NCBI RefSeq assembly: GCF_000012845.1
Contig: NC_009615.1
Span: forward strand, 457,501 to 521,500
Reading direction: 5' to 3'
DNA from: Parabacteroides distasonis ATCC 8503
GTDB lineage: Bacteria; Bacteroidota; Bacteroidia; Bacteroidales; Tannerellaceae
Length of the DNA: 64,000 nt
The translations under genes were made by a program, and so were the position numbers. The notes beneath the pieces are model-generated. The model was not told where the DNA came from. It ran no database searches and was given only the letters and a program-made list of their open reading frames with translations. The number at the start of each line of letters is the position of its first letter. Within the stretch, counting starts at the first letter, position 1. Positions 27,940 to 51,639 of the stretch are shown one piece after another.

Positions 27940-27953
27940 TTTGTTTCACGCCG

Positions 27954-27982: not shown

Positions 27983-28130
27983 GCAATCATTAGGGTTTGT
28001 TTGTGTTTCCAGTTGGATTCTCGTTAAATCTTCGTTCTTATTTCTGATGTATAGACATGGCAATAGAGACGAAATGGCCTCGTATTTCCGAAATCATCAC
28101 GTCCCCCCCTAAAATCGAACATACATTCTT

Positions 28131-28217
28131 GTAGAGATGGGTATACCCCGTCTCATCCCCTCTAAAAGATGTTTTAAATTACTGTCAGACGGTGGGAGAC
28201 GGAGCATGCTCCGTCTC
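28131..28217. repeat. Two GAGACGG-type palindromic elements
   Basis: A perfect 22-bp palindrome at 28196-28217 (arms GAGACGGAGCA, centre ATGC-like) and an imperfect relative at 28131-28154 (GAGATGG-GTATACC-CCGTCTC). Both can form hairpins in either orientation of the segment. They resemble small dispersed palindromes; whether they terminate transcription or are mobile relics is not known. Confidence 0.65.
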
Positions 28218-28251
28218 TACAACTGAGTAATAACCATTCTCCCACCTTTTG

Positions 28252-28271
28252 CGCTACTCACTAAGTAGCCT
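28252..28271 (-). repeat. Right inverted repeat of the invertible promoter segment
   Basis: CGCTACTCACTAAGTAGCCT, exact reverse complement of 27920-27939. Sits 68 bp before the upxY start codon, so it lies in the upxY leader in the ON state. Confidence 0.9.
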
Positions 28272-28339
28272 AATTTCTCACATGGCGAAAAAGGGTTATG
28301 GTGCATATATCAAACTATCTCTTTTAAGCAATCAACGAA

Positions 28340-35433: not shown

Positions 35434-36720
35434 ATGAAGAGAGAGGATCAAGACTTCAAATTAAAACAAATAACACCGTTTGCTTCTAAAATATGGCTGA
35501 GTTCTCCTACGATGCATGGAGATGAAATCAAATATATAATAGAGGCATATGAGAGTAATTGGATGTCTACCGTGGGCAAGAATATTAATGAGGTAGAACG
35601 TCTGGCTTGTGAGAAGATTGGTTGTCAGTATGCGGTTGCATTGTCAGCTGGGACAGCCGCTTTGCATATGGCGGTTCGGTTGGCCGGGGTAAAACCCGGT
35701 GATAAGGTCTTTTGTTCGGATATGACCTTTGACGCTACGGTAAATCCGGTTGTCTACGAGGGTGGAGTACCCGTGTTTATCGACACGGAATATGATACTT
35801 GGAATATGGATCCGATTGCGTTAGAGAAAGCCTTCGAAATTTATCCGGAAGTGAAGGTCGTTGTGGTCGCTCATCTCTATGGGACACCGGGCAAGATCGA
35901 TGAAATCCGGGCTATTTGTCAGAGGCATGATGCTATTATCATAGAGGATGCGGCGGAATCGTTGGGTGCCTCTTATAAAGGTGTACAAACCGGAACTTTT
36001 GGTCATTACAACGCTATTTCATTTAATGGCAATAAAATTATCACGGGATCTTCTGGGGGAATGTTATTGACGGATGATTTGGAGGCAGCGAACAAAGTAC
36101 GTAAATGGTCTACCCAATCCCGAGAGAATGCCCCTTGGTATCAACATGAGGAACTGGGATATAATTATCGCATGAGTAACGTGATAGCGGGAGTGGTAAG
36201 AGGTCAATTCCCTTATCTGGAGGAACATATCGCTCAAAAGAAGGCTATTTATGAAGGATATAAATCGGGATTTAAGGATCTTCCGGTAACCATGAATCCG
36301 TTTGATGCGAGGCATTCCGAACCCAATTATTGGCTGTCTTGCCTATTGATTGACGAGGATGCTATGTGTAAGCAAGTATGCGGGGAGTGCGATGCTTTAT
36401 ATATCAGTGAATCCGGAAAAAGTTGTCCGACTGAGATCTTGGAAAAACTTGCCCAATATAATGCGGAGGGCCGTCCTGTCTGGAAGCCCATGCACATGCA
36501 ACCTATTTATCGGATGAATGGATTTGTTACCCGGGAAGGTAACGGCCGGGCGAAGACAAATGCGTACATAAGTGGTAGTGTCCGTGGAAAGGATGGCAAG
36601 CCGTTGGATGTAGGCATGGATATTTTTCATAGAGGTTTGTGCCTGCCTTCGGATAACAAGATGACGGTGGAGCAGCAAGAGGTGGTGATAGAGATTGTTC
36701 GGAGATGTTTTTATAGGTGA
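35434..36720 (+). CDS. DegT/DnrJ/EryC1 aminotransferase, PglE-like
   Basis: PLP aminotransferase that converts the 4-keto sugar made by the upstream dehydratase to a 4-amino sugar. 428 residues. PLP-binding motifs: SAGTAALHMAVRL, the aspartate motif IIEDAAESLGA, and the Schiff-base Lys in FNGNKIITGSSGG. The C-terminal WKPMHMQPIY and HRGLCLPS segments are family signatures. It is longer than Campylobacter PglE by two inserted stretches around CGECDALYISESGKSC and REGNGRAKTNAYISG, which are also common in Bacteroidota versions as far as I recall. Six bases after Wzc. Confidence 0.92.
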   Translation: MKREDQDFKLKQITPFASKIWLSSPTMHGDEIKYIIEAYESNWMSTVGKNINEVERLACEKIGCQYAVALSAGTAALHMAVRLAGVKPGDKVFCSDMTFDATVNPVVYEGGVPVFIDTEYDTWNMDPIALEKAFEIYPEVKVVVVAHLYGTPGKIDEIRAICQRHDAIIIEDAAESLGASYKGVQTGTFGHYNAISFNGNKIITGSSGGMLLTDDLEAANKVRKWSTQSRENAPWYQHEELGYNYRMSNVIAGVVRGQFPYLEEHIAQKKAIYEGYKSGFKDLPVTMNPFDARHSEPNYWLSCLLIDEDAMCKQVCGECDALYISESGKSCPTEILEKLAQYNAEGRPVWKPMHMQPIYRMNGFVTREGNGRAKTNAYISGSVRGKDGKPLDVGMDIFHRGLCLPSDNKMTVEQQEVVIEIVRRCFYR

Positions 36721-36735
36721 TTAATAGTGATTTTA

Positions 36736-37386
36736 ATGGACTTGAAGAATTTCTATAAACAATATATAAAGAGAGTAATGGACATTTTATGTTCATTTTT
36801 GTTTCTTGTTCTATTTTGGTGGTTACTTGTATTAGTTGCTTTTTTAGTAAAAATTAGATTAGGCTCTCCAATTTTATTCACTCAAGACAGACCCGGAAAA
36901 AAAGGAAAGGTTTTTAAGTTATACAAATTTAGGTCTATGATTGATAAATGTGATAAAGAAGGAAATCCTCTACCTGATGACGAACGTTTACCCAAATTCG
37001 GTCGTATTCTTCGCTCAACAAGCCTGGATGAGTTACCTGAGATTTTCAATATATTAAAGGGAGATATGAGTGTTGTAGGGCCAAGACCCCTTTTGGTTGA
37101 ATATCTTCCATATTATACAAAAGAGGAATTGCGTCGTCATGAACAGAGACCGGGATTGACTGGGTGGGCACAGATTAACGGACGAAACGCTACCGGGTGG
37201 GACGAACGTTTGCAACAGGATGTTTATTATGTAGATCATTGTTCATTGTTTTTAGATTGTAAAATCATTTTACGTACGGTTCTAAAAGTAGTAAAAAGGT
37301 CGGATGTGTTGGTCGGGAAACAAATTCCTGCGGGAAGATTGGATGTCTCCCGTAAAAATAGGCTGGATTTAAATGGTGTAAAATGA
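36736..37386 (+). CDS. Initiating phospho-sugar transferase, PglC type
   Basis: Transfers the first sugar phosphate from its UDP donor to undecaprenyl phosphate, starting the capsule repeat. 216 residues from ATG 36736 (an in-frame GTG lies 9 nt upstream). One re-entrant N-terminal helix (about 13-40), then the compact catalytic domain: LFTQDRPGKKGKVFKLYKFRSM, the Asp-Glu pair in STSLDELPEIFNIL, MSVVGPRPLL and RPGLTGWAQINGRN. Short (monotopic) type as in PglC. Base composition becomes AT-richer from here on. Its stop overlaps the next start (ATGA). Confidence 0.94.
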   Translation: MDLKNFYKQYIKRVMDILCSFLFLVLFWWLLVLVAFLVKIRLGSPILFTQDRPGKKGKVFKLYKFRSMIDKCDKEGNPLPDDERLPKFGRILRSTSLDELPEIFNILKGDMSVVGPRPLLVEYLPYYTKEELRRHEQRPGLTGWAQINGRNATGWDERLQQDVYYVDHCSLFLDCKIILRTVLKVVKRSDVLVGKQIPAGRLDVSRKNRLDLNGVK

Positions 37387-37907
37387 AATTTGGAAATGTA
37401 AATATCCGACCTTTTACGGAAAATGATATATTGAATAAGGTCCGATGGATAAACGATTGTGAGAATAATAAGTTCCTGCATTACGAACTTCCTTTGGACG
37501 AGGATAAGACTCGGGCTTGGTTTCATAAGAATAAGGATCGAGCAGATCGCTATGATGCCATCATTGAATATGATAGAAATCCTGTGGGTGTAATAGGTTT
37601 ATTATCTATCGTAGATGGACGGGCCGAATATTATATTACGTTAGGAGAAAGTCGGTATAGAGGAAAAGGTATAGCGCGAGATGCTAGTATCTTATTGTTG
37701 AAATATGCTTTTGATGAATTGGATTTGCTAGAAGTCTATTTATATACGGAAGTAGACAATATACCAGCTCAGAAATTATTTGAGAAATGTGGTTTTGTGA
37801 AGCATCGTTTAGATAAAAACTCTGCGGTTAACAGAGGAACCTTAGTAGATAGATTCTATTATAGCATTACAGCTTCTGAATTTCGTGAAAATAGTAAAGG
37901 GAAATAG
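37383..37907 (+). CDS. GNAT N-acetyltransferase, probable amino-sugar acetylation
   Basis: 174-residue acetyltransferase of the GNAT fold. Acetyl-CoA loop RYRGKGIARDASILLL (motif A) and the motif-B strand EVYLYTEVDNIPAQKLFEKCGF are clear. It replaces the hexapeptide-type acetyltransferase found in Campylobacter pgl loci and may acetylate the 4-amino sugar made by the preceding aminotransferase, as PseH does for another sugar; this is inferred from position. Overlaps the previous gene by 4 nt. Confidence 0.86.
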   Translation: MKFGNVNIRPFTENDILNKVRWINDCENNKFLHYELPLDEDKTRAWFHKNKDRADRYDAIIEYDRNPVGVIGLLSIVDGRAEYYITLGESRYRGKGIARDASILLLKYAFDELDLLEVYLYTEVDNIPAQKLFEKCGFVKHRLDKNSAVNRGTLVDRFYYSITASEFRENSKGK

Positions 37908-37909
37908 AT

Positions 37910-38845
37910 ATGACTCCTTTATACTTTTTGTTTAGTGATTCCAATAAAAATAATATCTATATAAAACGTGATGATCTGATCCCTATCTCTTTTGGTGGGA
38001 ATAAGGCAAGAAAAGCCATGAACTTCTTTAAAGAAATAGATCAAGGGGGATTTGATTGTGTAGTTACGTATGGAAGTGGTAGCTCCAACCATTGCCGAAT
38101 CGTTTCAAATATGGCAGCTTCAAGGAAATTGCCTTGTTATATTGTCGCTCCAAAAGAATCTTCTTTGCCTACATTCAATAGTAAGATGATGGAGTTATTC
38201 GGCTCTCATTTTATGATTACTCCTGTCAATGAGGTCCATGACACCATCGAGAGATTGTTGGCTACATTGAAAGAGGAAGGAAAGAAGCCTTATTTTATTG
38301 CGGGTGGCGGGCATGGTAATCTAGGAACGCAGGCTTATGTGGATTGCTATAAGGAAATCGCAGTATATGAGCATGAGTGTAAAATTCATTTTGGTCTTAT
38401 CTTTCTAGCGTCAGGTACGGGTACAACGCAAGCAGGATTGGTTTGCGGACAATTGATGAGTCAAGATAAACGAAAGATTATAGGTATTAGTATCGCTCGG
38501 AAAAATCCTCGGGGAAAACAAGTGGTATTGGATAGCTCGTATGAATATTTAGCGAGTAAAGGGATATATCTATCAAAGATCCAATTAGAAAGTGAAATAG
38601 TTTTTGTTGATGATTATGTCGGTTTAGGATATGGAACAAAATCCAAGGATATAGATTATACGATTAATAGCGTCTTAGTGAATTTTGGAATACCAATGGA
38701 CTCTACTTATACAGCGAAAGCATATACCGGAATGATAAGATATATACAAGAAAATAATGTGACAGGAGAAAATATCCTATTTATTCATACGGGTGGAACC
38801 CCTTTATTTTTTGATGATTTGATGAGATTAGAAAATATAATTTAG
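37910..38845 (+). CDS. PLP fold-II enzyme, D-cysteine desulfhydrase / ACC deaminase type
   Basis: 311 residues. PLP lysine in ISFGGNKARKAMNFF, the substrate-side SGSSNHCRIVSNMA, and a phosphate-binding ASGTGTTQAGLVCG loop. Family members deaminate small amino acids (D-cysteine, ACC, D-serine) to keto acids. In this capsule operon, next to ATP-grasp ligases and an opine dehydrogenase, it could supply a keto acid or an unusual amino acid; that is inference. It starts 2 nt after the acetyltransferase gene. Confidence 0.82.
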   Translation: MTPLYFLFSDSNKNNIYIKRDDLIPISFGGNKARKAMNFFKEIDQGGFDCVVTYGSGSSNHCRIVSNMAASRKLPCYIVAPKESSLPTFNSKMMELFGSHFMITPVNEVHDTIERLLATLKEEGKKPYFIAGGGHGNLGTQAYVDCYKEIAVYEHECKIHFGLIFLASGTGTTQAGLVCGQLMSQDKRKIIGISIARKNPRGKQVVLDSSYEYLASKGIYLSKIQLESEIVFVDDYVGLGYGTKSKDIDYTINSVLVNFGIPMDSTYTAKAYTGMIRYIQENNVTGENILFIHTGGTPLFFDDLMRLENII

Positions 38846-38847
38846 AA

Positions 38848-39825
38848 ATGGAAATCAATATATTAATCTTAAGTGTAGGGACGAGGAATAAGATAGTCCA
38901 ATATCTTAAAAAGGCGTTGACGGATCAAGAGGGTAATCGTTTAGGCTCTGTTATCGCTACAGATATGAGTAATATCGCTCCGGCAATATATGAAGCTGAT
39001 AAATATTACCAAGTACCTCGGATGATGGCTTCGGATTATATGGAGGTTATTTTTGATATTTGTAGAAAAGAGAAGATAACAGCCATATTAAGTTTAATAG
39101 ATCCTGAATTGAGTCTGTTAGCCAAGCACGAAAAAGAATTTGCGGCATTAAGTGTCAAGGTGATAGGATCTAGTTATGAATTATGTGAGATGAGCCTAGA
39201 TAAGATACAAATGTATGAATGGCTAACAACGCATGGTTATAAGACCGCTAAAAGTTATACCGATAAGTCTGTTTTTTTTAAGGATATCGAGTTGGGAAAA
39301 ATCTCTTATCCGGTATTTGTAAAACCTGTCAGAGGTAGCGCTTCTCTCGCTATAAGTAAAGTGAATGATAAAGAGACTATCGAGTTGCTTTTTGCCCATG
39401 CGGATAACCTAATGATCCAAGAATTTTTAGACGGTCAGGAAATAGGAGCGGATGTATATATTGATATGTTGAGTGGTGAGGTCGTTTCTATTTTCACGAA
39501 AAGGAAAATCGTTATGCGGGCAGGAGAAACAGATAAAGCGGTTTCTTTTAAAGATGAAAAGCTATTTTGTTTGATCAACAGATTTGTGAAAGAGGCTGGA
39601 TATCGGGGGCAAATAGATATTGATATTTTCGAGATCGGAGGTGATTATTATATATCAGAAGTGAATCCTCGTTTTGGAGGAGGGTATCCTCATGCTTATG
39701 AATGTGGTTGTAATCATATGGATTTGATTGTTAATAATTTGTCCGGAAAGACTAATCCGGTGAATATTGGAAATTATTCGGAGGATATTTATATGATGAA
39801 ATATAATGAAGTTTTGATTCGATAG
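38848..39825 (+). CDS. ATP-grasp ligase, carbamoyl-phosphate-synthase-like
   Basis: 325-residue ATP-grasp protein. N-terminal Rossmann-like pre-ATP-grasp domain (1-105, ILILSVGTRNKIVQYLKKAL), central ATP-binding lysine strands (YPVFVKPVRGSASLAI; MIQEFLDGQEIGADVYID) and the metal-binding DIDIFEIGGDYYISEVNPRFGGG near the C-terminus. Such enzymes join a carboxylate, activated as acyl phosphate, to an amine. The likely product here is an amide between an amino acid and a sugar or a second amino acid. Two bases after the PLP enzyme. Confidence 0.86.
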   Translation: MEINILILSVGTRNKIVQYLKKALTDQEGNRLGSVIATDMSNIAPAIYEADKYYQVPRMMASDYMEVIFDICRKEKITAILSLIDPELSLLAKHEKEFAALSVKVIGSSYELCEMSLDKIQMYEWLTTHGYKTAKSYTDKSVFFKDIELGKISYPVFVKPVRGSASLAISKVNDKETIELLFAHADNLMIQEFLDGQEIGADVYIDMLSGEVVSIFTKRKIVMRAGETDKAVSFKDEKLFCLINRFVKEAGYRGQIDIDIFEIGGDYYISEVNPRFGGGYPHAYECGCNHMDLIVNNLSGKTNPVNIGNYSEDIYMMKYNEVLIR

Positions 39826-39837
39826 AATGGATAGAAT

Positions 39838-40929
39838 ATGAGAAGTGGTGTACGTAAAAAATGGGATGATCTGAATTTCAAGGCTGAATCTTTTTATCGG
39901 AAATATGAGTATCGTAAAAAGGCTAAGCTTCGTTTAAAGCGAATGAATGGCGGATGCAAATGCACGAAAGAGTATAATGAGATTGTGATTCCTTTTTGGA
40001 AGAAATATGGATTGAGACCAGATAAAATGTGGTATCAGATCTTTTGGGATCGAACTCATGAGCCGGATCCGCGCTATATCCCGGATGATTTATGGTATGG
40101 GGTTATAGTCCCTTATTTCAGTAATTCACAGTTCCGTCGTTTTGGTGAGGACAAATGTTTACATGATGTTTTTTTCAAGGATTTAGTTAGACCTGAGACC
40201 ATTGTGAAAAATATGGCCGGAATCTTTTATGATGCGCATATGTGTATAATCACTAAAGAACAGGCTATAGAGAAATGTATGGTGTATCAAGGAGAGTTTT
40301 TGATTAAGCCCTCAATAGATAGTGGAGAAGGTAGATTGATTAGTTTCTTTGACTCACAGGACTTGGATCAAAAATCATTAATATCAGCTATAGATGGTTT
40401 AAAGGCGAACTTTATTGTTCAAGAGGCAGTTAAGCAGCATGCGGTACTGGCTGCGTTGAATCCTTCTTCATTAAATACGATTCGTGTTGTGTCGTTCTTA
40501 TTTGAAGGTACGATCTATATTTTATCCTCTATTTTACGAATGGGGGCAAGTGGACATAAGGTCGATAATATTGGTGCGGGTGGATTCGCCTGTCCGATTC
40601 AAGCTAATGGGCGGTTGACCGAGAAAGGTGTTAATCGAAAAGCCGAGTGGGTTACAGAAAATCAACACGGTATTCGTTTTGCGGATGTTATAGTACCTTC
40701 TTATGATAAAATCATAGCTATGATAAAAGAGCAACATTTGAAATTGGCCCATTTCAAACTAATCGGTTGGGATTTTTCTGTGAATGTGAAAGGGGAACCG
40801 GTTTTCATTGAATATAATGTTTGCCCGGGTTCCAATCAGATCACTTGTGGCCCCACATTCGGAGATTTGACAGAACGTGTGTTGGAGGAGGTCTTTGTGA
40901 AGAAGACTTTGGAATATGCGCAGAATTAA
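39838..40929 (+). CDS. Sugar-transfer-associated ATP-grasp protein 1
   Basis: 363 residues, matching the ATP-grasp group found in polysaccharide loci (sugar-transfer-associated). ATP-grasp core: FLIKPSIDSGEGRLISFF, FIVQEAVKQHAVLAALNPSSLNTIRVVSF, and VKGEPVFIEYNVCPGSNQI with the metal-binding Glu/Asn. The N-terminal 130 residues, including GGCKCTKEYNEIVIPFWKKY, are specific to the group. A paralogous relative lies at 42057. The joined substrates are not known. Confidence 0.8.
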   Translation: MRSGVRKKWDDLNFKAESFYRKYEYRKKAKLRLKRMNGGCKCTKEYNEIVIPFWKKYGLRPDKMWYQIFWDRTHEPDPRYIPDDLWYGVIVPYFSNSQFRRFGEDKCLHDVFFKDLVRPETIVKNMAGIFYDAHMCIITKEQAIEKCMVYQGEFLIKPSIDSGEGRLISFFDSQDLDQKSLISAIDGLKANFIVQEAVKQHAVLAALNPSSLNTIRVVSFLFEGTIYILSSILRMGASGHKVDNIGAGGFACPIQANGRLTEKGVNRKAEWVTENQHGIRFADVIVPSYDKIIAMIKEQHLKLAHFKLIGWDFSVNVKGEPVFIEYNVCPGSNQITCGPTFGDLTERVLEEVFVKKTLEYAQN

Positions 40930-40965
40930 ATAGATATATAATAATTTAGGCAAGGAGAATTAAAA

Positions 40966-42042
40966 ATGAAAATTGCTATTTTAGGAGCTGGTAACGCAGG
41001 GTGTGCAGTTGCGGCTGATTTAACATTGAAAGGACATGAAGTTACTTTGATCAAGACATCTCATGCGATGCATGATGATAATTTTGAGTATATGCAATCA
41101 CATAAAGGAGAAATGACTTTAAATGAGTTTGGCAAAGTTTCTACTGCGTATATTCATCGAGTTACAAGAGACCTAGAGGAGCTGCAAGACGCTGAAATCG
41201 TTATCATATATATTCAAACGAATTATCATGAGCAATTAATAGAAAAGATAGCACCATATCTACAAAAAGATCAAATACTTTTGATCAATCCGGGATATTT
41301 GTCTACCGCATATGTTCTTAAATATTGCCAAGATAAACCTATCATTGTAGCGGAAGCTCAAAGCTCTTTTATAGACGGTCGTGTTATGGAACCGGGGCAA
41401 TTTAAGGTAGGGTTTCGAAATGTAAGGAATCCGATTGGTATTTATCCTTCATCAAGAAAAGAGGAAGCGATAGAAAAATTGGATAAATTACAAGAACGAT
41501 TTGTTTATTTGGATTCTGTGGTAGAAGCGGCTCTTCATAATCCAAACTTAGTAGTGCATACAGTAGGTTCTGTTATGAGCATACCGCGTATAGAGAAATC
41601 ACATGGTGATTTTTGCATGTATCATGAGGCATATACCAGGGACAACCCTGCTACCTGGAGAATCTTAGAGGCGATGGATGCGGAAAAGATGAATGTTCTG
41701 GAGAAACTAGGTTTTTCAAGGCTAAGTTATGTGGAGGCTTGTAAATACCGAAATTCATTAGATGATAATAAGGACGCTAAAGAGGTTTTCTTGGATTATG
41801 CGGAAATGGATACCCGTGCGAAAGGACCGACCCAAGTGGATTCCAGATATATTTCAGAGGATGTACCGCAGGGGTTAGTGATGTTAGAGGCTTTAGGAAA
41901 GTCGTTAGATGTCGCAACTCCTATTGTTTCAAGTCTTATCGAAATAGCTAGTGCGGCTTTAGGACGTGATCTTCGTGCGGAAGGTAGGACTCCGGAGAAG
42001 TTGGGTGAGGAAAATATTCAGAAAATACTGATGGACTGCTGA
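40966..42042 (+). CDS. Octopine/opine-dehydrogenase-family enzyme
   Basis: 358 residues of the NAD/NADP octopine-nopaline dehydrogenase family, which reductively condenses an alpha-keto acid with an amino acid's amino group. N-terminal NAD loop KIAILGAGNAGCAVAADL, acidic/neutral second strand, then the C-terminal octopine dehydrogenase domain from about 185: AALHNPNLVVHTVGSVMS with the catalytic-type His, and GLVMLEALGKSLDVATPIVSSLIEIASAALGRD. Known polysaccharides contain alanopine and carboxyethyl-lysine, so a capsule opine is a reasonable prediction. Placed between two sugar-transfer-associated ATP-grasp genes. Confidence 0.85.
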   Translation: MKIAILGAGNAGCAVAADLTLKGHEVTLIKTSHAMHDDNFEYMQSHKGEMTLNEFGKVSTAYIHRVTRDLEELQDAEIVIIYIQTNYHEQLIEKIAPYLQKDQILLINPGYLSTAYVLKYCQDKPIIVAEAQSSFIDGRVMEPGQFKVGFRNVRNPIGIYPSSRKEEAIEKLDKLQERFVYLDSVVEAALHNPNLVVHTVGSVMSIPRIEKSHGDFCMYHEAYTRDNPATWRILEAMDAEKMNVLEKLGFSRLSYVEACKYRNSLDDNKDAKEVFLDYAEMDTRAKGPTQVDSRYISEDVPQGLVMLEALGKSLDVATPIVSSLIEIASAALGRDLRAEGRTPEKLGEENIQKILMDC

Positions 42043-42056
42043 TTCTAAAAAGAATT

Positions 42057-43058
42057 ATGAAAGAATGTATTTTGCAGAAATTTATTCGTTTGTTTCGTGA
42101 TATTGATAAAGAGATTCTTCCTAATGCAAATGTTTTAGAACGAATTTATATAGTCTTTGATTTTTTGTGGGAAAAAATAAAATATAACATAGAATTAATA
42201 GACTATGTTCAGTATCGTTTTTATTTTAAAAGAAGAATCGAGAGGGATCAATTTATTACACATGGTAAGTTGTTGAAAATTATAAAAATATGTAATGATC
42301 CAAAATCAAGAATATTTTTTGATCAGAAACCATTGTTTAATCAAGAGTTTAAAGACTATTTAGGTCGAGATTGGCTTGATACAAAGGTTTGTTCAAAAGA
42401 AGAGTTTTATTCTTTTTGTAAAAGAAATTCAACACTTTTCTGCAAATCTCCTGATGGAATGTTTGGAAAGGGGATTGATATTATTCATTTGGCTAATGTG
42501 AGTGATTTGGATCGTTTCTATGATACGTGTAAGAAAAACAAGATTTTATTAGAAGAAGTACTAGAGCAAGATTGCGAGTTGGCTGCTTTTAATAATACTG
42601 CGGTGAATACGATTCGTGTTGTGACACTGATTTGTGCGGATGATTCAGTTAGAATTATGGCTGCGGTTTTAAGGTTAAGTAGAAAGGGAAAATTTGCCGA
42701 CAATTTTCATCATGATGGGATAGCCTCGTTAATAGATGTCGAAACAGGTATTGTTAATACAACAGGGGTAGATCGTAAATGGAATCGATATACAATACAT
42801 CCGGATTCAAGAAAACCTATTGTGGGATTTCAAATTCCAAGATGGTTTGAAGTTGTAGATATGGTAAAGAAAGCAGCAAGGGTTCATCCTGAAGTCAGAT
42901 ACGTAGGGTGGGATGTAACAATAAAAAGCAGTGGAGAAATCGTTCTGATAGAAGGAAATCCTGGGGCTGATCCAGATGTGACACAAATAGAGGATCAGGT
43001 TGGAAAATGGCCATTGTATGAGCCTTTGTTATTTGAGATAGAGAGTTGTAAGGAATAA
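42057..43058 (+). CDS. Sugar-transfer-associated ATP-grasp protein 2
   Basis: 333 residues; same family as the product of 39838. Shared landmarks are STLFCKSPDGMFGKGIDII, ILLEEVLEQDCELAAFNNTAVNTIRVVTL (compare LAALNPSSLNTIRVVSF) and SGEIVLIEGNPGADPDVTQIE. The N-terminal 60 residues differ from the first copy. AT-rich. The presence of two copies around the opine-dehydrogenase gene suggests two bond-forming steps or two acceptor sugars. Confidence 0.78.
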   Translation: MKECILQKFIRLFRDIDKEILPNANVLERIYIVFDFLWEKIKYNIELIDYVQYRFYFKRRIERDQFITHGKLLKIIKICNDPKSRIFFDQKPLFNQEFKDYLGRDWLDTKVCSKEEFYSFCKRNSTLFCKSPDGMFGKGIDIIHLANVSDLDRFYDTCKKNKILLEEVLEQDCELAAFNNTAVNTIRVVTLICADDSVRIMAAVLRLSRKGKFADNFHHDGIASLIDVETGIVNTTGVDRKWNRYTIHPDSRKPIVGFQIPRWFEVVDMVKKAARVHPEVRYVGWDVTIKSSGEIVLIEGNPGADPDVTQIEDQVGKWPLYEPLLFEIESCKE

Positions 43059-43070
43059 TCAGAATCGATC

Positions 43071-44297
43071 ATGAAAAAAATTACTTTTATCGGGGATATT
43101 ACTAGTGATAGGCCTTTGCTGAATGCTGCATATGATAGGAATACAGATGCTTATGATTTTTCCCCTGTCTTTGGTAAAGTTAAAAAATTGTTTGAGGAAT
43201 CTGATTATGTGGTAGGTAATTTTGAGACCGTATGTGCGGGTGATAAGAATGGGTTCCAGAATCAGTATCTGTTATGTAACTCTCCAGATGAATTGATCCA
43301 AGCAATGGTGAAGGGAGGTGTCAATTGTGTTACGACTGCTAATAATCATTGTTTAGACCAAGGGATTGAAGGCCTTGTTCGTACAATTAAAGAATTAGAT
43401 AGAAATAAGGTTTTACATACGGGTACTTTTACATATGAGAACGCTTCAAAACGAATTCTGTATTTATATTTGAATCATATTGTAATAGCACTAATATCGA
43501 ATACCTATTCGACAAATTCGTCAAATACGGGAATTGCTCTAGATGATCGAAATGATTTCCATGTGAATTTGCTTAAAGAGCAAAGTGAATTTATTCTTGT
43601 TGGTAAAAGAAAATGGGCTAAAAGAATTTTTTTTAGGTTTATTAAAGCAAGATATCGGAGAAGAATAAATAGGGTTGTGGCAAGAATGCAACTTCGGCGG
43701 GGAAAAGTATTCTTAAAGCCGAGGGTAGATGTTATCATGGATGGTGATACTGATAATAAATATTTAGGATTATTGGCAGAAGATCTGAAAACCGCAAGAG
43801 AAAAAGCTGATTATGTGATCGTATGTTCGCATATTGGGGGACAATTTAATGAAACTCCGGGAACCTATAGTAGGTTTATGGCTGATTTTGTTTTAGAACA
43901 TGGTGCTGATATGTTAATAGGAAATCATCCGCATGTTATTCAGAAAACAAGAATAGAAAACAGAAAGGTTGTTGCTTATTCTTTGGGTAGTTTTAATCAA
44001 TCTCCGAGTGCCGATTATATAATTCATGATGCCCTACCTGAATATTCTATGGCTTTGCATGTTTATTTTTCAAAAGATCGAGATAAAGGGAATGTAAGAA
44101 TGATCACATTCTCTATTTTAAAGGCTGTTGAAGATTCCAATAAGATGATTGTTGTTTATCCAATAGATGAACTAAATGATGAATTGGAGGGGGATGATCG
44201 TATTCAATTACAGGAAGATGTAAAGAGAATTTATGAACGAATTACTGGGACTTCTATCCTCAAAGATGTGATACAGAGGGAGTATGTATTGAGATGA
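43071..44297 (+). CDS. CapA-family protein 1
   Basis: 408 residues, metallophosphatase-fold CapA family, named for the poly-gamma-glutamate capsule protein. Metal/active-site motifs: ITFIGDITSDRPL, DYVVGNFETVCAG, VTTANNHCLDQGIEG, VCSHIGGQFNETPG and MLIGNHPHVIQK. A basic insert (about 175-215, KRKWAKRIFFRFIKARYRRRINRV) interrupts the domain. No signal peptide, so it is probably cytosolic. Tandem with a second CapA gene 4 nt later. Role in a sugar capsule unknown; amide chemistry or phosphate removal are possible. Confidence 0.85.
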   Translation: MKKITFIGDITSDRPLLNAAYDRNTDAYDFSPVFGKVKKLFEESDYVVGNFETVCAGDKNGFQNQYLLCNSPDELIQAMVKGGVNCVTTANNHCLDQGIEGLVRTIKELDRNKVLHTGTFTYENASKRILYLYLNHIVIALISNTYSTNSSNTGIALDDRNDFHVNLLKEQSEFILVGKRKWAKRIFFRFIKARYRRRINRVVARMQLRRGKVFLKPRVDVIMDGDTDNKYLGLLAEDLKTAREKADYVIVCSHIGGQFNETPGTYSRFMADFVLEHGADMLIGNHPHVIQKTRIENRKVVAYSLGSFNQSPSADYIIHDALPEYSMALHVYFSKDRDKGNVRMITFSILKAVEDSNKMIVVYPIDELNDELEGDDRIQLQEDVKRIYERITGTSILKDVIQREYVLR

Positions 44298-44301
44298 TGT
44301 G

Positions 44302-45549
44302 ATGAAAGAATATTATAAAATAAGTTTTACCGGGGATATAATGTGCGAACGTCCCTTATTGAGTGCTTCTAGATCTGATAAAAAATATGACTTTGACTTT
44401 GTTTTTCATGGAGTGAAGGATAAGTTGCGGGAATCAGATCTTGTTGTTGGTAATTTGGAGACTGTATTTGCTGGGGAGGAGGCCGGATATACGAATGACG
44501 TGTATTCATTTAATACTCCGGATCGTTTTGTATGTTCAATGAAAAGTGCTGGTATCGATTATGTAAGTACGGCCAATAATCACTGTCTTGATCGCGGAAC
44601 CGAAGGGTTGATTAGGACATTGGATCTATTGGATCAGTATGGAATAAAGCATTTTGGAACTTATAGGAGTAAAGAAGAACGAACTTCTTATGAACTTTTG
44701 GAGTTGGGGGGTAAGAAGATTGCTTTAATAGCTTATACGTATGGAACAAATGTAGTAGAGAATGGGATTGTATTCAAAGAAGATGAAGAGTTCTATGTTA
44801 ATGTATTGAAGTCGCAAGAACGTGAGTGGCTGAAATTTAAAAAGACATTAAATACACCGGGTATTCGTAGTAAACTTTCTCGATACATACGAAAGGTTAC
44901 TACTTTAGAGCAGCGAATGCGAATCAAAAAGAAACTTGGCATGTTGAAAAATCTTCCTAAATCAGATGATTTATTAGAGGATGACATCTATCCAAGATAT
45001 TTAGAACGGCTTAAATCTGATATAGAAAAAGCAAGGTGTGAAGCCGACTATGTTATTGTTTGTTTACATTCCGGTGGCTTATTCAATGTTAAGGTCGGAG
45101 CATACACGGAATATATTGTAGATTTAATAGTTCGTGCAGGAGCGGATGCTATAGTAGGAAATCACCCCCATGTCGTTCAGAAATTCGTAGATAAAGGCTG
45201 TTTAGTTGCCTATTCGTTGGGTAATTTCAGCATATCTCCTAGTTCTCTTTATTTAGTAAGAGAAAATTTGCCCGAGTATTCGGTGTTATTACATTTCTAT
45301 TTTGATAAAGAAAGAATGTCTCTTTATAAAGTTACATTTTCTATATTAAAGATTGTAGAATCTAAAAATGGAAATCTAAGTGTATATCCTATTAATGCGC
45401 TGTATGATAAGTGTGATATTACTAGTGAACGGGACATGTTGATAAGTGATTGTACGAAAATATACAATACTTTTACCGGTAAGAAGGAAATGGCGATAGA
45501 TATATTGGATGAGTACGTATGTTTTGAAAAAATTAAGGATGCATTATGA
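44302..45549 (+). CDS. CapA-family protein 2
   Basis: 415 residues, paralogue of the preceding gene with the same motif order: ISFTGDIMCERPLL, DLVVGNLETVFAG, VSTANNHCLDRGTEG, VCLHSGGLFNVKVG, AIVGNHPHVVQKF. The basic insert is present here too (about 180-225). Either GTG 44299 or ATG 44302 could start it; the ATG is chosen. It overlaps the glycosyltransferase gene by 4 nt (ATGA). The two copies differ throughout, so this is not a recent duplication. Confidence 0.84.
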   Translation: MKEYYKISFTGDIMCERPLLSASRSDKKYDFDFVFHGVKDKLRESDLVVGNLETVFAGEEAGYTNDVYSFNTPDRFVCSMKSAGIDYVSTANNHCLDRGTEGLIRTLDLLDQYGIKHFGTYRSKEERTSYELLELGGKKIALIAYTYGTNVVENGIVFKEDEEFYVNVLKSQEREWLKFKKTLNTPGIRSKLSRYIRKVTTLEQRMRIKKKLGMLKNLPKSDDLLEDDIYPRYLERLKSDIEKARCEADYVIVCLHSGGLFNVKVGAYTEYIVDLIVRAGADAIVGNHPHVVQKFVDKGCLVAYSLGNFSISPSSLYLVRENLPEYSVLLHFYFDKERMSLYKVTFSILKIVESKNGNLSVYPINALYDKCDITSERDMLISDCTKIYNTFTGKKEMAIDILDEYVCFEKIKDAL

Positions 45550-46694
45550 AAGTCTGTTTTTTTGCGCATTGTAGCATTACCAATAGCGATGGGGCAACTC
45601 TTTCCATGTATAATATCATTGATGAAATGTTGCGTCGAGGAATTGAAGTTGTTGTCGTTCTTGCCAATACGAGGAATTTAGAGGGGCGAATTGCAGAAGG
45701 GAAGATAAAATTTATAGTCGCTCCATTATATGGGATGCGAATGGATTTGAACAAAAAAACTCCGATGACGCAAGTGAAGTTCTTTGTGAAAAGTATCTGT
45801 AATTCTATACAGAAAAGAAAAATAGAAAAGGTTCTTAAATCGGAGAATATTGACATTATCCATATAAATGGATTAGATAGTAGTATTGGTGCAGAGATCG
45901 CACAAAAATTGAAGATTCCATATGTATGGCATATTCGTCAATTCATGGAAGCTGATTTGGGTAAAAAGTTGTTTCGTGAAAAGTATGTATATCGATTGGT
46001 TGCAAGGGCCTCATCTGTTATAGCGATATCAAAAGATGTACAGGCTAAATTTGAGCCTCTCTTGGGGCGTAAAATGGATCTTGTATATAATGGAGTTCCG
46101 GTTGAAAAATATAAACTGGAAGATGTTACAAGATTTGAATCTCCGGTAACTAGGATGCTTTTGGCAGGGAGAATTTCTGTTCAAAAAGGCCAAATGGATG
46201 CGATAAAGGCTGTAGAGTTATTAATGCAACGTGGTATTGATACTGTTTTATTGACTTTGGTGGGACAAGGAGAAACGAAGGAGTATTTGGAATATGTGAA
46301 ATCGTATGTAAAAGAGCATGAGCTAGAACAAAAAATTTGCATTTTAGAGCATCATGATGATTTAAGGGAGTTGCGAAGACAATGTGATATAGGTTTGACT
46401 TGTTCAAAAAAGGAAGCTTTTGGACGAGTTACTGTAGAGAATATGTTGGCTAAAATGCTTGTTATTGGAGCTAATACAGGTGGGACATTAGAGATTGTCG
46501 AGGATGGTTATAATGGCTTGTTGTACGAGGAAGGTAATCCGGAAAGTTTGGCTGGGCGTATTGAATATGCTATGGAGCATAAGATGGATATGCAAATATT
46601 ATTGGATAGAGGATATCTGGATTCTATAAATCGGTTTTCTAGTACAACTCTAATAGAGTCCATATTGAATTTATATAAAAAGATAATATTCTGA
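45546..46694 (+). CDS. Glycosyltransferase family 4 (GT-B)
   Basis: 382 residues, retaining GT-B enzyme adding one sugar of the repeat in the cytosol. N-terminal acceptor domain with FFAHCSITNSDGATLSMYNI; C-terminal donor domain with MLLAGRISVQKGQMDAIKA, LTLVGQGE, and the GT4 signature CSKKEAFGRVTVENMLAKM with the two conserved Glu (EX7E type). The sugar donor cannot be told. Only clear classical glycosyltransferase of the locus, so the remaining linkages may be made by the TupA-like and ATP-grasp-type proteins. Confidence 0.9.
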   Translation: MKVCFFAHCSITNSDGATLSMYNIIDEMLRRGIEVVVVLANTRNLEGRIAEGKIKFIVAPLYGMRMDLNKKTPMTQVKFFVKSICNSIQKRKIEKVLKSENIDIIHINGLDSSIGAEIAQKLKIPYVWHIRQFMEADLGKKLFREKYVYRLVARASSVIAISKDVQAKFEPLLGRKMDLVYNGVPVEKYKLEDVTRFESPVTRMLLAGRISVQKGQMDAIKAVELLMQRGIDTVLLTLVGQGETKEYLEYVKSYVKEHELEQKICILEHHDDLRELRRQCDIGLTCSKKEAFGRVTVENMLAKMLVIGANTGGTLEIVEDGYNGLLYEEGNPESLAGRIEYAMEHKMDMQILLDRGYLDSINRFSSTTLIESILNLYKKIIF

Positions 46695-46710: not shown

Positions 46711-47976
46711 ATGAACATCGTTTTGAAACGGAAGTTTATCAATAAACTTATGTGGCATGTGATTTTTTGGGGAATACAGTTCGCTTTATTATGTCCTGAA
46801 TTTATCACATTTACCTCTGCATATAACTATATTCGATATATACATCATGTGATTTGTGTCTGTTCAATAGTTGTATTTTTTGTGTTTTTTAGAAAAAATG
46901 AATTACTGTGGTTGATTCTGTTGTTCTTTTTCCTGTTTCTATTTGTAACGATGAAGAATGCGGGAAACTTGGGAAATTTTCTTTTGAATTTTGAGAGGTC
47001 TTATTCTCTGATATGTTTCTATTGCTTTTTTTATAGGATGAGCAGGCGATTATTCTTTATTGGAACTTCTTTTTTTTGGATGTCATTGATTTTAGTTAAT
47101 ACTATTCTTACCTTTCTTTATCCCAATGGATTGTATTTTTTTAATTCTCAATTTTCAGGTATAGATAAATCGTATTACTTCTTAGGAGTATCTAATCAGG
47201 TTATACCGTTTTATATGATTTCAATAGTGTTCGTTTTTTTGAAAAACTTTTATTTGAATAAAAATAATAAGGAAGTCTTTCTGTTGTTTATATGCATGTG
47301 GGGTTGTGAATTTGTGTATCAGTCTGCTACATCGCTTGTTGGATGTTTCTTTTTTACTATTGGCTATTTGTTTTTTGTATTGCCTAAAGATACACAGGGG
47401 AAGATTGTACATTCTATTCATCGGGGATACAATTTTATTTTAGTTGCCATGGCCATCACTGTGTTTATGATCCACTATTTGATAGTTGTGTATCAAATAC
47501 AAAATAAATTTGCCTATTTAGTGGAAGTCGTTTTAAAAAAGGATTTAACATTTTCTACTCGAACTATAATTTGGAATAGTGCTATTAATATGATTGAAAA
47601 ATCATTTCTTATAGGTTATGGGGCTGTTGAAAACAATAATAGATATATTGAGATAGGAAGTTCTTCTTTTAATGCTCATAATATTATTCTTCAGATATTA
47701 CTTATGGGAGGAATCATATTGTTGTTGGTTTGTTTTTTACTTGTTTGGAAGTCAATTAAATCAATGTTGTTTTGTTTGGATTTGAGGGTCAAGAATATAG
47801 TGTTTTTGCTATTTGCTGTATTCTTCTTTATGTCCTTGTCAGAAGTGTATACACTAAATTTGATGTTTATTGTTCTATACTTGGGTTTTTTGATAAAAGA
47901 AAAAATTCCCTATTGTAAACATCTGGATGCTGAATCTTTTAGTAATAATGCAAGTATCCGATTGAATTTATACTAG
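46711..47976 (+). CDS. Wzy-like O-antigen/capsule polymerase
   Basis: 421 residues, about ten to twelve membrane helices and very AT-rich. The large periplasmic loop with TFSTRTIIWNSAINMIEKSFLIGYG and FNAHNIILQILLMGGI is the Wzy_C-type signature (R-T-x-I-W followed by a His in the next loop). It polymerises lipid-linked repeat units delivered by Wzx. Low similarity within this family is normal, so the assignment rests on topology, the loop motif and position. Confidence 0.85.
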   Translation: MNIVLKRKFINKLMWHVIFWGIQFALLCPEFITFTSAYNYIRYIHHVICVCSIVVFFVFFRKNELLWLILLFFFLFLFVTMKNAGNLGNFLLNFERSYSLICFYCFFYRMSRRLFFIGTSFFWMSLILVNTILTFLYPNGLYFFNSQFSGIDKSYYFLGVSNQVIPFYMISIVFVFLKNFYLNKNNKEVFLLFICMWGCEFVYQSATSLVGCFFFTIGYLFFVLPKDTQGKIVHSIHRGYNFILVAMAITVFMIHYLIVVYQIQNKFAYLVEVVLKKDLTFSTRTIIWNSAINMIEKSFLIGYGAVENNNRYIEIGSSSFNAHNIILQILLMGGIILLLVCFLLVWKSIKSMLFCLDLRVKNIVFLLFAVFFFMSLSEVYTLNLMFIVLYLGFLIKEKIPYCKHLDAESFSNNASIRLNLY

Positions 47977-48018: not shown

Positions 48019-48894
48019 ATGTTTGGTAAAATTAAATTTTTATTTTCTAGAATTTTAAAACAACTGTCTCCTGTATTTTATGTTAAGCAGAAATATTATA
48101 GAATATTTGGAACGAGTTTGGATTTAGTAAACCCTCAGGGTTTTAATGAAAAAATATGCTGGCTTGCCTTGTATTGGCAAAAGCCTATAGTAGTTAAATG
48201 TGCTGATAAATATGAGCTTAGAGAATATGTTAGCTCTTTAGGTCTCATGGAATTAATGCCTCAGCTATATGGTGTCTATACTGATGTGAAGGGTATAGAG
48301 TGGAATCGATTTCCTAAAAAGTTTGTGATTAAATGTACACATGGTTGTAAGTATAATATTGTATGCTTTAATAAAGATGAATTAGATATTCATTCTGCTG
48401 ATATTTCTTTAAATAAATGGCTTCATTCTGTTTATGGTACCAATACTTATGAGCCTCATTATTCAAAAATGACACCTCGTATTATTGCTGAAGAGTTTAT
48501 TGAAACTAGTGAAAGAGGACTTCCGGAAGATTATAAGGTATATTGTTTTAATGGAGAGCCAAAGTGTGTGTTGGTTTGCCTTAACAGGGAGTCGGAACTT
48601 GTACTTGAATGGTATGATCTTGAATGGAATGTATTTGATATTGGTGCTAAAAGTAATATGCGTAGGGCTAATAAACCTGCTTGTTTGGATCAGATGATAA
48701 AATATGCTCGAATATTGTCAAAAGGATTTCCTTTTGTAAGAGTTGATTTCTATGATAGTTTTGGTAAGCCAATTTTAGGGGAAATGACGTTTACACCTAT
48801 GTATGGAATGGCTAAATATTATTCGAAAGAAGGGAATCTATTATTGGGCAGTATGTTGACTCTTCCAAATAAGTATAAAGGGCATTTTGAGTAA
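48019..48894 (+). CDS. TupA-like ATP-grasp protein, capsule
   Basis: 291 residues of the TupA-like ATP-grasp group, whose namesake makes a cell-wall teichuronopeptide (amide-linked). Motifs: NEKICWLALYWQKPIVVKCADKYELREYV, FVIKCTHGCKYNIVC, RIIAEEFIETSERGLPEDYKVYCFNGEP, PFVRVDFYDSFGKPILGEMTFTP. In many annotations it is called a glycosyltransferase, but the fold is a ligase. Fourth ATP-grasp gene in the locus, which strengthens the case for amide-linked decorations. Its end overlaps the in-frame upstream extension of the flippase gene, not the chosen start. Confidence 0.82.
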   Translation: MFGKIKFLFSRILKQLSPVFYVKQKYYRIFGTSLDLVNPQGFNEKICWLALYWQKPIVVKCADKYELREYVSSLGLMELMPQLYGVYTDVKGIEWNRFPKKFVIKCTHGCKYNIVCFNKDELDIHSADISLNKWLHSVYGTNTYEPHYSKMTPRIIAEEFIETSERGLPEDYKVYCFNGEPKCVLVCLNRESELVLEWYDLEWNVFDIGAKSNMRRANKPACLDQMIKYARILSKGFPFVRVDFYDSFGKPILGEMTFTPMYGMAKYYSKEGNLLLGSMLTLPNKYKGHFE

Positions 48895-48931
48895 TCTTAT
48901 AAATGGTTGTTTTGAATTTGGAGTATTTGTG

Positions 48932-50371
48932 ATGGAAGGAAAGATAAAAAAGAATCTTGTGTACAATGTATGTTATCAACTATTGGTAATCATATTGCCA
49001 TTTATAACTGCACCCTATGTGTCAAGAGTTTTAGGGGCATACAATATCGGTATATATTCTTATACACAAGCTCTTGCTAATTATTTTTATCTTTTTGTGA
49101 TGTTAGGAGTGATCAATTATGGGAATAGAACGATTGCTGCAATAAGAGACGATCGAAATACCTTGGATAAAACATTTTGGGAAATTTATTCTTTTCAGTT
49201 ACTGGTTGGATTATTTGTTACGGCTTTATATTTTATTTACTGTATTTCTTATGTGAAAGAAAATCGATTGATATATTGTATGCAATTCTTTTATGTTGCA
49301 TCGGGAATTTTTGATGTTAATTGGCTTTGCTTTGGTTTAGAAAAGTTTAAATTGACTACGATCCGTAGTGTAATTGTCCGATTGGGAATGGTATTTGCGA
49401 TTTTTTTATTTGTAAAAGATCAGTCTGATTTATCAATTTATACGGGAATCCTTTCTGTTGGAAGCTTATTGGCTGTATTAGCTGTATGGCCATTTGTGTT
49501 ATCAAATGTAAATTTTAGAAGACCTTCTCTTACTGGCATTGTAAAGCATATTAAACCTAATCTGGTCCTTTTTTTGCCAGTTGTAGCTGTCAGTCTATAT
49601 AATATAATGGATAAATTGATGTTAGGAAGTTTTAGTACGGAAGAAGAAGTTGGTTTTTATACTTATGCAGAGCGAATAACTCAGATACCTAATACGATAA
49701 TTTTAGCATTGAATTCTGTTCTTATGCCTAGAATGGCTAATTTATATGCCAAAAACGATACTATTAAGACTAGGAATATGATGGATAATATTATGTTATT
49801 TGCAATGTTTATGAGTGTATTGATGGCATTTATATTAGCGAGAATTGCTCCGAATTTTGCTCCTTGGTTTTATGGTGATGAGTTTGCTCGATGTGGATTA
49901 TTTATAGTGATGCTTTGTCCTATTATAATATTTAAAGGTTGGGCTGGCGTGTTGAGGACACAATATATTATTCCTAAAGGTAAGGATCGAGTTTTTATTA
50001 CTTCATTGACTATAGGGGCAGTGGTTAATCTAATAATAAATTACTGTTTGATACCAAAATATAGTGGGATCGGTGCTGTAGTTGGTACGTTGTTCGCAGA
50101 GTTTGCGGTTTGTTTAGTGCAATTTACTATGATATATAAGGAAATTCCATTTAAGATTTATTTGAAAGATGGGCTTGCTTTTTGTTGTATGGGGCTCGTG
50201 ATGTATAATGCCGTATTGTATATAGAATATTTAAATGTATCTCCATTCTTTACTATGGTAATACAAATTGTAATTGGAACTATTTTATTTACTATTTTGG
50301 CTGTATTTTATTGTATTAAAGTAAAGGGAATAAATGTAAGGAATAAAATTTTGTATGAATTGAAAAAATAA
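48932..50371 (+). CDS. Wzx-type oligosaccharide flippase
   Basis: 479 residues from ATG 48932 with about 12-14 membrane helices, polysaccharide-transport (MVF/PST) family. It flips the undecaprenyl-linked repeat unit across the inner membrane. Opening KKNLVYNVCYQLLVIILPFITAPYVSRVLGA is diagnostic for the family, and the loop YNIMDKLMLGSFSTEEEVGFYTYAERI follows. The in-frame start at 48887 lies inside the preceding gene and adds 15 residues of no clear use; GATGGAAGGAAAG fits the chosen start better. Confidence 0.93.
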   Translation: MEGKIKKNLVYNVCYQLLVIILPFITAPYVSRVLGAYNIGIYSYTQALANYFYLFVMLGVINYGNRTIAAIRDDRNTLDKTFWEIYSFQLLVGLFVTALYFIYCISYVKENRLIYCMQFFYVASGIFDVNWLCFGLEKFKLTTIRSVIVRLGMVFAIFLFVKDQSDLSIYTGILSVGSLLAVLAVWPFVLSNVNFRRPSLTGIVKHIKPNLVLFLPVVAVSLYNIMDKLMLGSFSTEEEVGFYTYAERITQIPNTIILALNSVLMPRMANLYAKNDTIKTRNMMDNIMLFAMFMSVLMAFILARIAPNFAPWFYGDEFARCGLFIVMLCPIIIFKGWAGVLRTQYIIPKGKDRVFITSLTIGAVVNLIINYCLIPKYSGIGAVVGTLFAEFAVCLVQFTMIYKEIPFKIYLKDGLAFCCMGLVMYNAVLYIEYLNVSPFFTMVIQIVIGTILFTILAVFYCIKVKGINVRNKILYELKK

Positions 50372-50382
50372 ATGCATAATAG

Positions 50383-51639
50383 ATGAAATCATTTCAAGAG
50401 TTAAAAATAGCCGTGGCCGGTACCGGTTACGTTGGTTTATCAATTGCCACTTTGTTATCACAGCATCATGAGGTGGTAGCCATAGACATAGTTCCTGAGA
50501 AGGTAGATTTGATCAATAATAAAAAATCACCGATTCAAGATGATTACATAGAAGAGTATTTGGCTAGTCATAAATTGAATTTGAAAGCTACGCTAGATGC
50601 GGTGATGGCTTATAAGGACGCTGATTTTGTGGTGATAGCGGCTCCGACAAATTATGATAGCCAGCGAAATTTCTTTGATACGTCCGCTGTTGAGGCTGTG
50701 ATAGAGCAGGTGCTTCGTTTTAATCCAAATGCTTTTATGGTCATTAAAAGTACGATACCTGTTGGTTATACGATTTCCGTACGTGAGCGTTTTCATACAA
50801 AGCGTATTCTTTTTAGTCCGGAGTTCTTGAGAGAGTCTAAGGCTTTGTATGATAATTTGTATCCTAGCCGGATCATCGTGGGTACGGATTTGTCTGATCC
50901 GGAATTGGTAGATGCCGCTCATATTTTTGCTGAACTGTTGCAAGAAGGTGCTATAAAAGAAAATATAGATACCTTATTTATGGGGTTGACAGAAGCTGAG
51001 GCCGTAAAACTATTCGCAAATACATATCTTGCACTACGTGTTTCTTATTTTAATGAGTTGGATACGTATGCGGAAATGAAGGGGTTGGATACTCAATCGA
51101 TCATAAATGGTGTGTGTTTGGATCCTCGTATCGGTAATCACTATAATAATCCTTCTTTTGGCTATGGGGGGTATTGTCTGCCGAAAGATACAAAACAATT
51201 ACTCGCTAATTATGAGGATGTACCCGAAAATTTGATAGAAGCGATTGTGGAGAGTAACCGGACTAGGAAAGACTTTATAGCAGATCAAGTACTTCGTATG
51301 GCGGGTTATTATGCTTACGGGGAAGAGAATGAATGGAGTAGTGTACGGGAACATCCTGTTACGATCGGTGTTTATCGATTGACGATGAAGTCTAATTCTG
51401 ATAATTTTAGACAATCTTCTATTCAAGGAATAATGAAACGAGTGAAAGCAAAAGGGGCTACTGTGATTGTTTATGAACCAGCCTTGTCGGATAATACTAC
51501 ATTCTTTGGGTCAGAAGTTGTTAATGATTTGGATCTCTTTAAAAAACGTAGTGCGGCTATTATAGCCAATCGATATGATGTGGAATTGGATGATGTGAAA
51601 AATAAGGTATATACACGAGATGTATATAGAAGGGATTAA
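50383..51639 (+). CDS. UDP-glucose/UDP-HexNAc 6-dehydrogenase
   Basis: 418-residue nucleotide-sugar dehydrogenase making a UDP-uronic acid. NAD loop [18 protein letters not shown] (8-25), [23 protein letters not shown], and active-site [15 protein letters not shown] with catalytic Cys265. The short C-terminal domain and [10 protein letters not shown] are of the UDP-glucose dehydrogenase (Ugd) type rather than WbpA, but the substrate is not certain. A uronic-acid carboxyl could be the site of amide decoration. Composition is closer to the chromosome average than that of the genes before it. Last gene of the capsule operon. Confidence 0.9.

Follow-up and report, generated by a model that had tools for sequence, protein, structure and literature searches.

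A recurring opine dehydrogenase/ATP-grasp gene pair in a capsule locus of Parabacteroides distasonis

Comparison with known opine and capsule-amide systems

Some O-antigens of Providencia bear alanopine or carboxyethyl-lysine, with the opine, a compound of an amino acid and a keto acid, amide-linked to an amino sugar or a uronic acid (according to the part of PMC10609480 available to us). They are a chemical precedent for the locus described here, with the difference that they are known as structures and our locus from its genes alone. The locus lies in a 64,000-nucleotide stretch of Parabacteroides distasonis ATCC 8503 (NC_009615.1, positions 457,501 to 521,500; hereafter the window, whose numbering we use), in which five intact open reading frames (ORFs) run on one strand with gaps of 2-36 bases. 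They encode a pyridoxal-phosphate (PLP) enzyme (PALP), a CarB-like ATP-grasp ligase (CarB), an ATP-grasp ligase of the ATPgrasp_ST family (AGST1), an octopine-dehydrogenase-family enzyme (ODH) and a second ATPgrasp_ST ligase (AGST2), and the family matches agree with those given in a first-pass annotation of the sequence. The most useful new fact is that ODH and AGST1 form a dedicated opine-dehydrogenase/ATP-grasp pair whose genes are neighbors in distantly related bacteria as well; this points to a so far undescribed means to decorate surface sugars or to make opine conjugates.

In opine metallophore systems the dehydrogenase is partnered with a nicotianamine-synthase-like enzyme. The staphylopine, pseudopaline and yersinopine dehydrogenases are 16-17% identical to the window ODH, whose partner is instead an ATP-grasp; no nicotianamine-synthase-like gene of the CntKLM type lies beside ODH, all 15 genes scanned between 35434 and 51639 matching other families. 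Teichuronopeptide-type and CapA/Pgs poly-amino-acid capsule systems combine TupA ATP-grasp ligases with CapA-type proteins, as does the window, but here no PgsB/CapB-type polymerase occurs among the same 15 genes and an opine dehydrogenase is added. The C-terminal TupA-like domain of Cj1438 from Campylobacter jejuni HS:2 carries out ATP-dependent amide formation on a capsule sugar, attaching serinol phosphate or ethanolamine phosphate to glucuronic acid (from the available part of PMC11800379). The window operon likewise has a TupA homologue (48019) and a UDP-sugar dehydrogenase (50383), whereas AGST1 belongs to another ATP-grasp family, PF14397, and is paired with an opine dehydrogenase. A further comparator is the N-(1-D-carboxylethyl)-L-norvaline dehydrogenase of Arthrobacter (CENDH, or ArODH; PDB 1bg6), from which the window ODH differs in having an ATP-grasp as its genetic partner, in Lys30 where CENDH has the acidic Asp34, a substitution from which we infer possible NADPH use, and in Tyr111 where CENDH has Ala111, a residue that acts with N198 in determining which amino acid is preferred (in the accessible portion of PMC10787698).

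In the literature surveyed, which takes in few subscription journals, none of the titles and abstract openings looked at describes the ODH/ATP-grasp pair, and the papers that mention octopine dehydrogenase together with capsule do not, by title, deal with capsule biosynthesis. The available parts of PMC5560731 contain no passage on carboxyethyl or ATP-grasp, and those of PMC2824669, PMC12118408 and PMC10406935 describe no ODH-AGST1 pair.

ODH and its partner AGST1

The ODH C-terminal helical domain matches Octopine_DH (PF02317) at 140 bits against a cut-off of 30, and the N-terminal domain carries a Rossmann GxGxxG motif in which G7, G9 and G12 are invariant. H198, D299 and R294, which align with H202, D297 and R292 of CENDH, are invariant in 23 of 23 sequences; H198 and D299 make up the catalytic His-Asp dyad of opine dehydrogenases, and R294 we take to be the substrate Arg. 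In its predicted structure ODH has the two domains usual for an opine dehydrogenase and resembles CENDH closely. A conserved active-site Trp has been described for the class (PMC10787698, in the part available); W231 of ODH is nearly invariant and may be its counterpart. ODH would condense a keto acid, probably pyruvate, and probably with NADPH. It is highly improbable that the enzyme acts on a sugar nucleotide or on a 2-keto acid such as ketopantoate and makes no opine, even given its location in a sugar locus and an N-terminal Rossmann domain with further matches to ApbA/PanE and, at a score under the cut-off, to a UDP-sugar dehydrogenase model. The first-pass annotation had named a sugar-nucleotide substrate as one outcome that would overturn its reading, and both the fold ranking and the active-site residues appear to disfavor such a substrate.

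AGST1 and AGST2 match PF14397 at 115 and 146 bits (cut-off 31.4). AGST1 has a predicted ATP-grasp fold, and its D312, E325 and N327 near the C-terminus, presumably nucleotide/Mg residues as in the ATP-grasp superfamily, are invariant in 16 of 16 sequences. In the whole genome PF02317 matches a single gene and PF14397 two, and all three lie inside the cassette.

Short patterns from the window ODH, scanned against one genome per species, gave 41 loci with close relatives (numbered with the prefix L), which include near-copies (L021/L022) and two loci from one genome (L032/L051) and are not 41 independent events. An AGST1-type ATP-grasp lies directly upstream of ODH on the same strand in 26 of these (a hand count from the locus map), and a TupA-type ATP-grasp adjoins ODH in 6 more. 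PF14397 matched in 27 of the 38 genomes searched; 16 had exactly one match, which in 15 cases stood directly upstream of ODH, in G142 and G156 as a domain of a longer upstream protein. When 47 ODH places were tabulated, PF14397 was directly upstream in 26 and directly downstream in 6. A tree of 48 ATPgrasp_ST proteins includes 27 of the upstream kind, and all but one of these group together in a 28-member clade (support 100/99), whose remaining two members are tandem copies one gene further upstream; the exception, from the genome of L019, has a long branch. Five distant PF02317 genes (26-31% identity), drawn from 19 plasmid records, served as a control. The gene tables, which are incomplete, show no ATP-grasp within 4 kb of any of them; their neighbors were 3-hydroxybutyryl-CoA dehydrogenase (3/5), an aminotransferase preceded by a MATE exporter (1) and a symporter (1). 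The close ODH type was not found on plasmids, where all 19 matching records were below 60% identity (26-31% among the 15 matches listed). AGST1 is thus, by adjacency and co-inheritance, the dedicated partner of ODH, and the earlier interpretation is supported in part: for an opine dehydrogenase coupled in this capsule locus to an ATP-grasp of carboxylate-amine-ligase fold speak adjacency, clade, residues and predicted folds.

Some of the ATPgrasp_ST proteins before ODH are unusually built. Those of L019, L037 and L053 are 724-1127 amino acids (aa) long, with N-terminal parts that match no family except in L019, where a second ATPgrasp_ST stretch is, judged by eye, perhaps a degenerate second ATP-grasp. 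The proteins of L037 (4905-7985) and L053 (3540-6923), of 1026 and 1127 aa and directly upstream of ODH, end in BspA-type leucine-rich repeats. We set these extra parts aside as a functional clue, the second stretch of L019 and the repeats being all that was recognized. A further ODH locus, cut by the contig end (L018, 138-6554), contains an L-amino-acid-ligase-like ATP-grasp (LAL_C2), an acyltransferase and a nucleotidyl transferase.

Two modules and their possible products

The first-pass annotation had the PLP enzyme supply the keto acid or amino acid for the opine. This we reject as the principal interpretation, since PALP tracks CarB rather than ODH: PALP occurs in 3 of the 41 ODH loci (L020, L023, L043), each time with CarB directly after it, and CarB is found in those loci only in the same three, apart from a 28% CarB stretch in L037. 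Among 345 genomes of the order of genome G147, searched at an E-value threshold of 1e-80, CarB was present in nine. One is the genome of L043; the loci of the other eight were fetched, and all have an initiating phosphoglycosyl transferase (PGT) in the same stretch (about 8 kb away in L155), while six have an aminotransferase (AT) 63-75% identical to that of the window. ODH is absent from seven of the eight and present only in L157, and PALP was found in L150, which has no ODH, and in L157. As PALP tracks CarB and CarB occurs without ODH, we distinguish two modules, PALP-CarB belonging with the amino-sugar starter genes.

The nearest curated families of PALP are D-cysteate sulfo-lyase, D-cysteine desulfhydrase and 1-aminocyclopropane-1-carboxylate (ACC) deaminase, all far under their cut-offs (best equivalog score 182 bits against 450), and because it falls below every named equivalog cut-off we give it no named activity. 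K32, S59 and Y267 of PALP, presumably the PLP Lys, catalytic Ser and catalytic Tyr, are invariant in 6 of 6 aligned sequences. CarB scores 538 bits against the curated cut-off of 271 for NF009406, a family that carries no assigned reaction.

We give about an even chance to the reading that one capsule operon houses two enzyme modules, the second being an opine pathway with amide attachment to the repeat unit. In the first module (CapD-AT-PGT-GNAT-PALP-CarB) a 4-amino sugar would be made, loaded on a lipid carrier and amidated, with CarB as the ligase and PALP supplying or tailoring its amino-acid substrate. In the second (AGST1-ODH), reductive condensation by ODH would link a keto acid to an amino-acid amine; AGST1, using ATP to activate a carboxylate, would couple the opine part through an amide to an amine of the repeat unit under construction. 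Amide-linked groups may be extended or tailored by AGST2, TupA and the CapA proteins. If true, this would tie the joining of opines to surface polymers to identifiable genes, might account for the known opine-bearing O-antigens, and would offer a recognizable two-gene signature by which new opine conjugates could be found. With their added charge and N-alkylated amides, opine groups should alter the surface as met by phages, antibodies and lectins.

Several observations weigh against this reading. Its reactions, substrates and step order, like the attachment of an opine to the capsule, are deduced from genes; the Tyr at CENDH position 111 keeps the amino-acid substrate of ODH from being read off; and the attachment chemistry is restricted because the opine nitrogen is a secondary amine. 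Nine of the 41 loci have no adjacent ATP-grasp match (L018, L024, L025, L030, L031, L041, L047, L049, L056), L018, L030 and L056 having less than 0.7 kb of upstream sequence. L025 and L031 instead pair ODH with CapD-like and, where scanned, undecaprenyl-phosphate genes (in L025, BacA and a VCA0040-like gene resembling an undecaprenyl-phosphate translocase adjoin ODH), and in L041 a glycosyltransferase lies about 4 kb off. An even sample of one class added four genomes: AGST1 is upstream in L098, a short AGST1 piece occurs in L099, and none in L100 or L101, whose ODH proteins are 52-54% identical and of which L101 has 0.5 kb of upstream sequence. Second ODH copies in G126 and G127 (about 41% identical; L103, L104) also lack AGST1. 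Finally, the largest AGST1 subclade (17 rows), drawn from metagenome-assembled genomes titled Clostridia or other Bacillota plus a short contig under the title Anaerolineaceae (Chloroflexota; binning error possible), lies in neighborhoods where no glycan genes were recognized, and the basic product of the pair therefore need not be a glycan.

In this subclade the genes are arranged as pairs or as ODH-AGST1-ODH triples, a puzzling arrangement with two opine dehydrogenases to one ligase. Six triples are of full length (L028, L036, L044, L045, L050, L051), two have a fragmentary first copy, and the six full first copies fall with L047 and L055 in a separate 8-row ODH clade (support 100/99). Among the neighbors of stand-alone pairs (63 of 132 listed ORFs scanned, 102 families matched) the commonest family was the ZIP zinc transporter, in 3 of 63, and no glycosyltransferase appeared among the 25 of these 102 families that were listed. 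The many pairs away from recognized glycan genes, the triples with their separate clade of first ODH copies and the zinc transporters all speak for a free small molecule, an opine-amide or a dipeptide capped with an opine, such as a metal chelator or osmolyte, with the capsule locus no more than its housing. We nonetheless judge this somewhat unlikely, given that the pairs of the window, L020, L023, L029, L043 and L157 share an operon with an initiating transferase, that the AGST1 proteins of the first five form their own subclade, and that Rfam found no riboswitch directly before the ODH-AGST1 pairs in the 19 loci examined. Alternatively, ligation might come before the action of ODH: AGST1 would attach an amino acid to a glycan or a second amino acid, and the amine left exposed would be N-carboxyethylated in place by ODH with pyruvate. 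The tandem ATP-grasps around ODH fit such stepwise building, and the triples would permit alkylation both before and after ligation; the order is unlikely all the same, the ODH model being so close to CENDH and the characterized enzymes of the fold taking free amino acids or nicotianamine-like derivatives (as far as the available part of PMC10787698 goes).

So the product of the pair is probably one that does not in every case require a glycan locus, and capsule loci probably recruited the pair. Tentatively, and at less than even chances, we consider ODH and its dedicated ATP-grasp to be an undescribed mobile two-gene module whose products are free opine-peptides in uncultured Bacillota (and possibly in Chloroflexota) and, where glycan loci have recruited it, opine-peptide side chains of capsules, with the triples leading to doubly N-carboxyethylated products.

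Gene order, probable transfer and layout of the capsule locus

The order AT-PGT-GNAT-PALP-CarB-AGST1-ODH-AGST2 recurs in L020, L043 and L157. CapA follows AGST2 directly in L157, and then GT4; one extra ATP-grasp intervenes in L043, and a threonine-aldolase-like PLP gene, Wzy and Wzx in L020. As this gene order recurs in genomes of Bacillota, the cassette is more than chance. CarB was found in 1 of 121 genomes of the window's family and AGST1 in 1 of 59 relatives, each time the window's own. PF02317 proteins of any kind occur in 16 of 123 family genomes; the other 15 differ in kind (21-24% identical where aligned), and 14 of them form one cluster. Even in Bacillota the close ODH type is uncommon: it was present in 9 of 341 genomes from one class and in 2 of 397 from one family, counts that include both sample centers, and one of those two is only 42% identical. 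In the tree, the window ODH is nested within Bacillota proteins, and its identity to named Bacillota reaches 84% (Hungatella), or 83% in the 41-locus scan. Transfer from Bacillota is the simplest reading, its direction resting on taxonomic distribution, and the ODH-AGST1 pair was probably borrowed; a Bacteroidales-type phase-variable capsule locus could then acquire whole decoration cassettes from Bacillota. The head genes have a GC content of 0.45-0.49, against 0.29-0.39 for PGT through the last gene, a drop that is weak evidence alone because low GC is common in capsule loci.

One divergent family protein (L002, of L002-L017) has for neighbors a class I aminotransferase and a protein 25% identical to the window flippase, an arrangement resembling the aminotransferase-dehydrogenase-MATE genes on an Agrobacterium plasmid (L162).

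The cassette is wider than first noted, with AT, PGT and GNAT upstream and two CapA genes, GT4, Wzy, TupA-like, Wzx and UDP-sugar dehydrogenase genes downstream (Table 1). The operon head has the recombinase, inverted-repeat pair and NusG-like gene of a Bacteroidales phase-variable capsule locus; this arrangement is likely an invertible promoter that switches the capsule on and off. The NusG-like antiterminator is presumably of the UpxY type. From their translations we take 29673 to be a CapD-type nucleotide-sugar 4,6-dehydratase/epimerase and genes between the head and AT to be Wza- and Wzc-like. An Rfam scan of 26000-56000 gave no match. The TupA-like ATP-grasp and UDP-sugar dehydrogenase in one operon suggest that a uronic acid may be amidated too.

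Table 1. Features of the P. distasonis capsule locus (window coordinates)
Feature	Position	Strand	Basis and remarks
Tyrosine recombinase (Phage_integrase)	26988..27920	+	PF00589 E 2e-16, PF13102 E 6e-17; adjoins invertible-promoter-like element
23-nt (nucleotide) inverted repeats 27917-27939 / 28252-28274	27917..28274	.	312 nt between; arms 96% complementary; candidate phase-variable promoter
NusG-like antiterminator	28340..29002	+	PF02357 24.6 bits; KOW 19.2 bits, below KOW cut-off
CapD	29673..31637	+	ORF; 39-49% identical stretches before AT in L020, L029, L157
AT, DegT/DnrJ aminotransferase, amino-sugar starter module	35434..36720	+	PF01041 E 4e-80; LegC-like but below LegC cut-off
PGT, initiating phosphoglycosyl transferase	36727..37386	+	PF02397 E 6e-62
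GNAT acyltransferase	37383..37907	+	PF13302 E 5e-20
PALP, PLP enzyme of D-cysteine desulfhydrase/ACC deaminase group	37910..38845	+	311 aa; PF00291 E 2e-31; PDB relatives 7ysk, 4d8t
CarB, PylC/CarB-like ATP-grasp ligase, amino-sugar starter module	38848..39825	+	325 aa; NF009406 (PRK12767) 538 bits
AGST1, ATP-grasp ligase partnered with ODH	39838..40929	+	363 aa; PF14397
ODH, CENDH-type opine dehydrogenase	40966..42042	+	358 aa; PF02317
AGST2, second ATPgrasp_ST ligase, other clade than AGST1	42057..43058	+	333 aa; PF14397 E 2e-42; tree
CapA1, PGA_cap protein	43071..44297	+	PF09587; NF038314 E 2e-17 but 62.5 bits vs cut-off 700; 8gqb E 6e-11
CapA2, second PGA_cap protein	44299..45549	+	PF09587; 8gq9 E 5e-11
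GT4 glycosyltransferase	45546..46694	+	PF00534; 53% homologue after CapA in L157
Wzy-type polymerase	46711..47976	+	PF04932
TupA-like ATP-grasp, candidate uronic-acid amidoligase	48019..48894	+	PF14305 E 2e-45
Wzx-type flippase	48887..50371	+	PF01943
UDP-sugar 6-dehydrogenase (putative uronic acid supply)	50383..51639	+	PF03721/PF00984/PF03720

The tandem CapA/PGA_cap proteins (43071-45549) have a remote similarity to MslH, the lasso-peptide epimerase that we take 8gq9 and its kin to be, and at 62.5 and 50.9 bits neither reaches the cut-off of 700 for the MslH-type peptide epimerase family. Judged from this likeness, CapA1 and CapA2 might epimerize or trim amide-linked amino acids.

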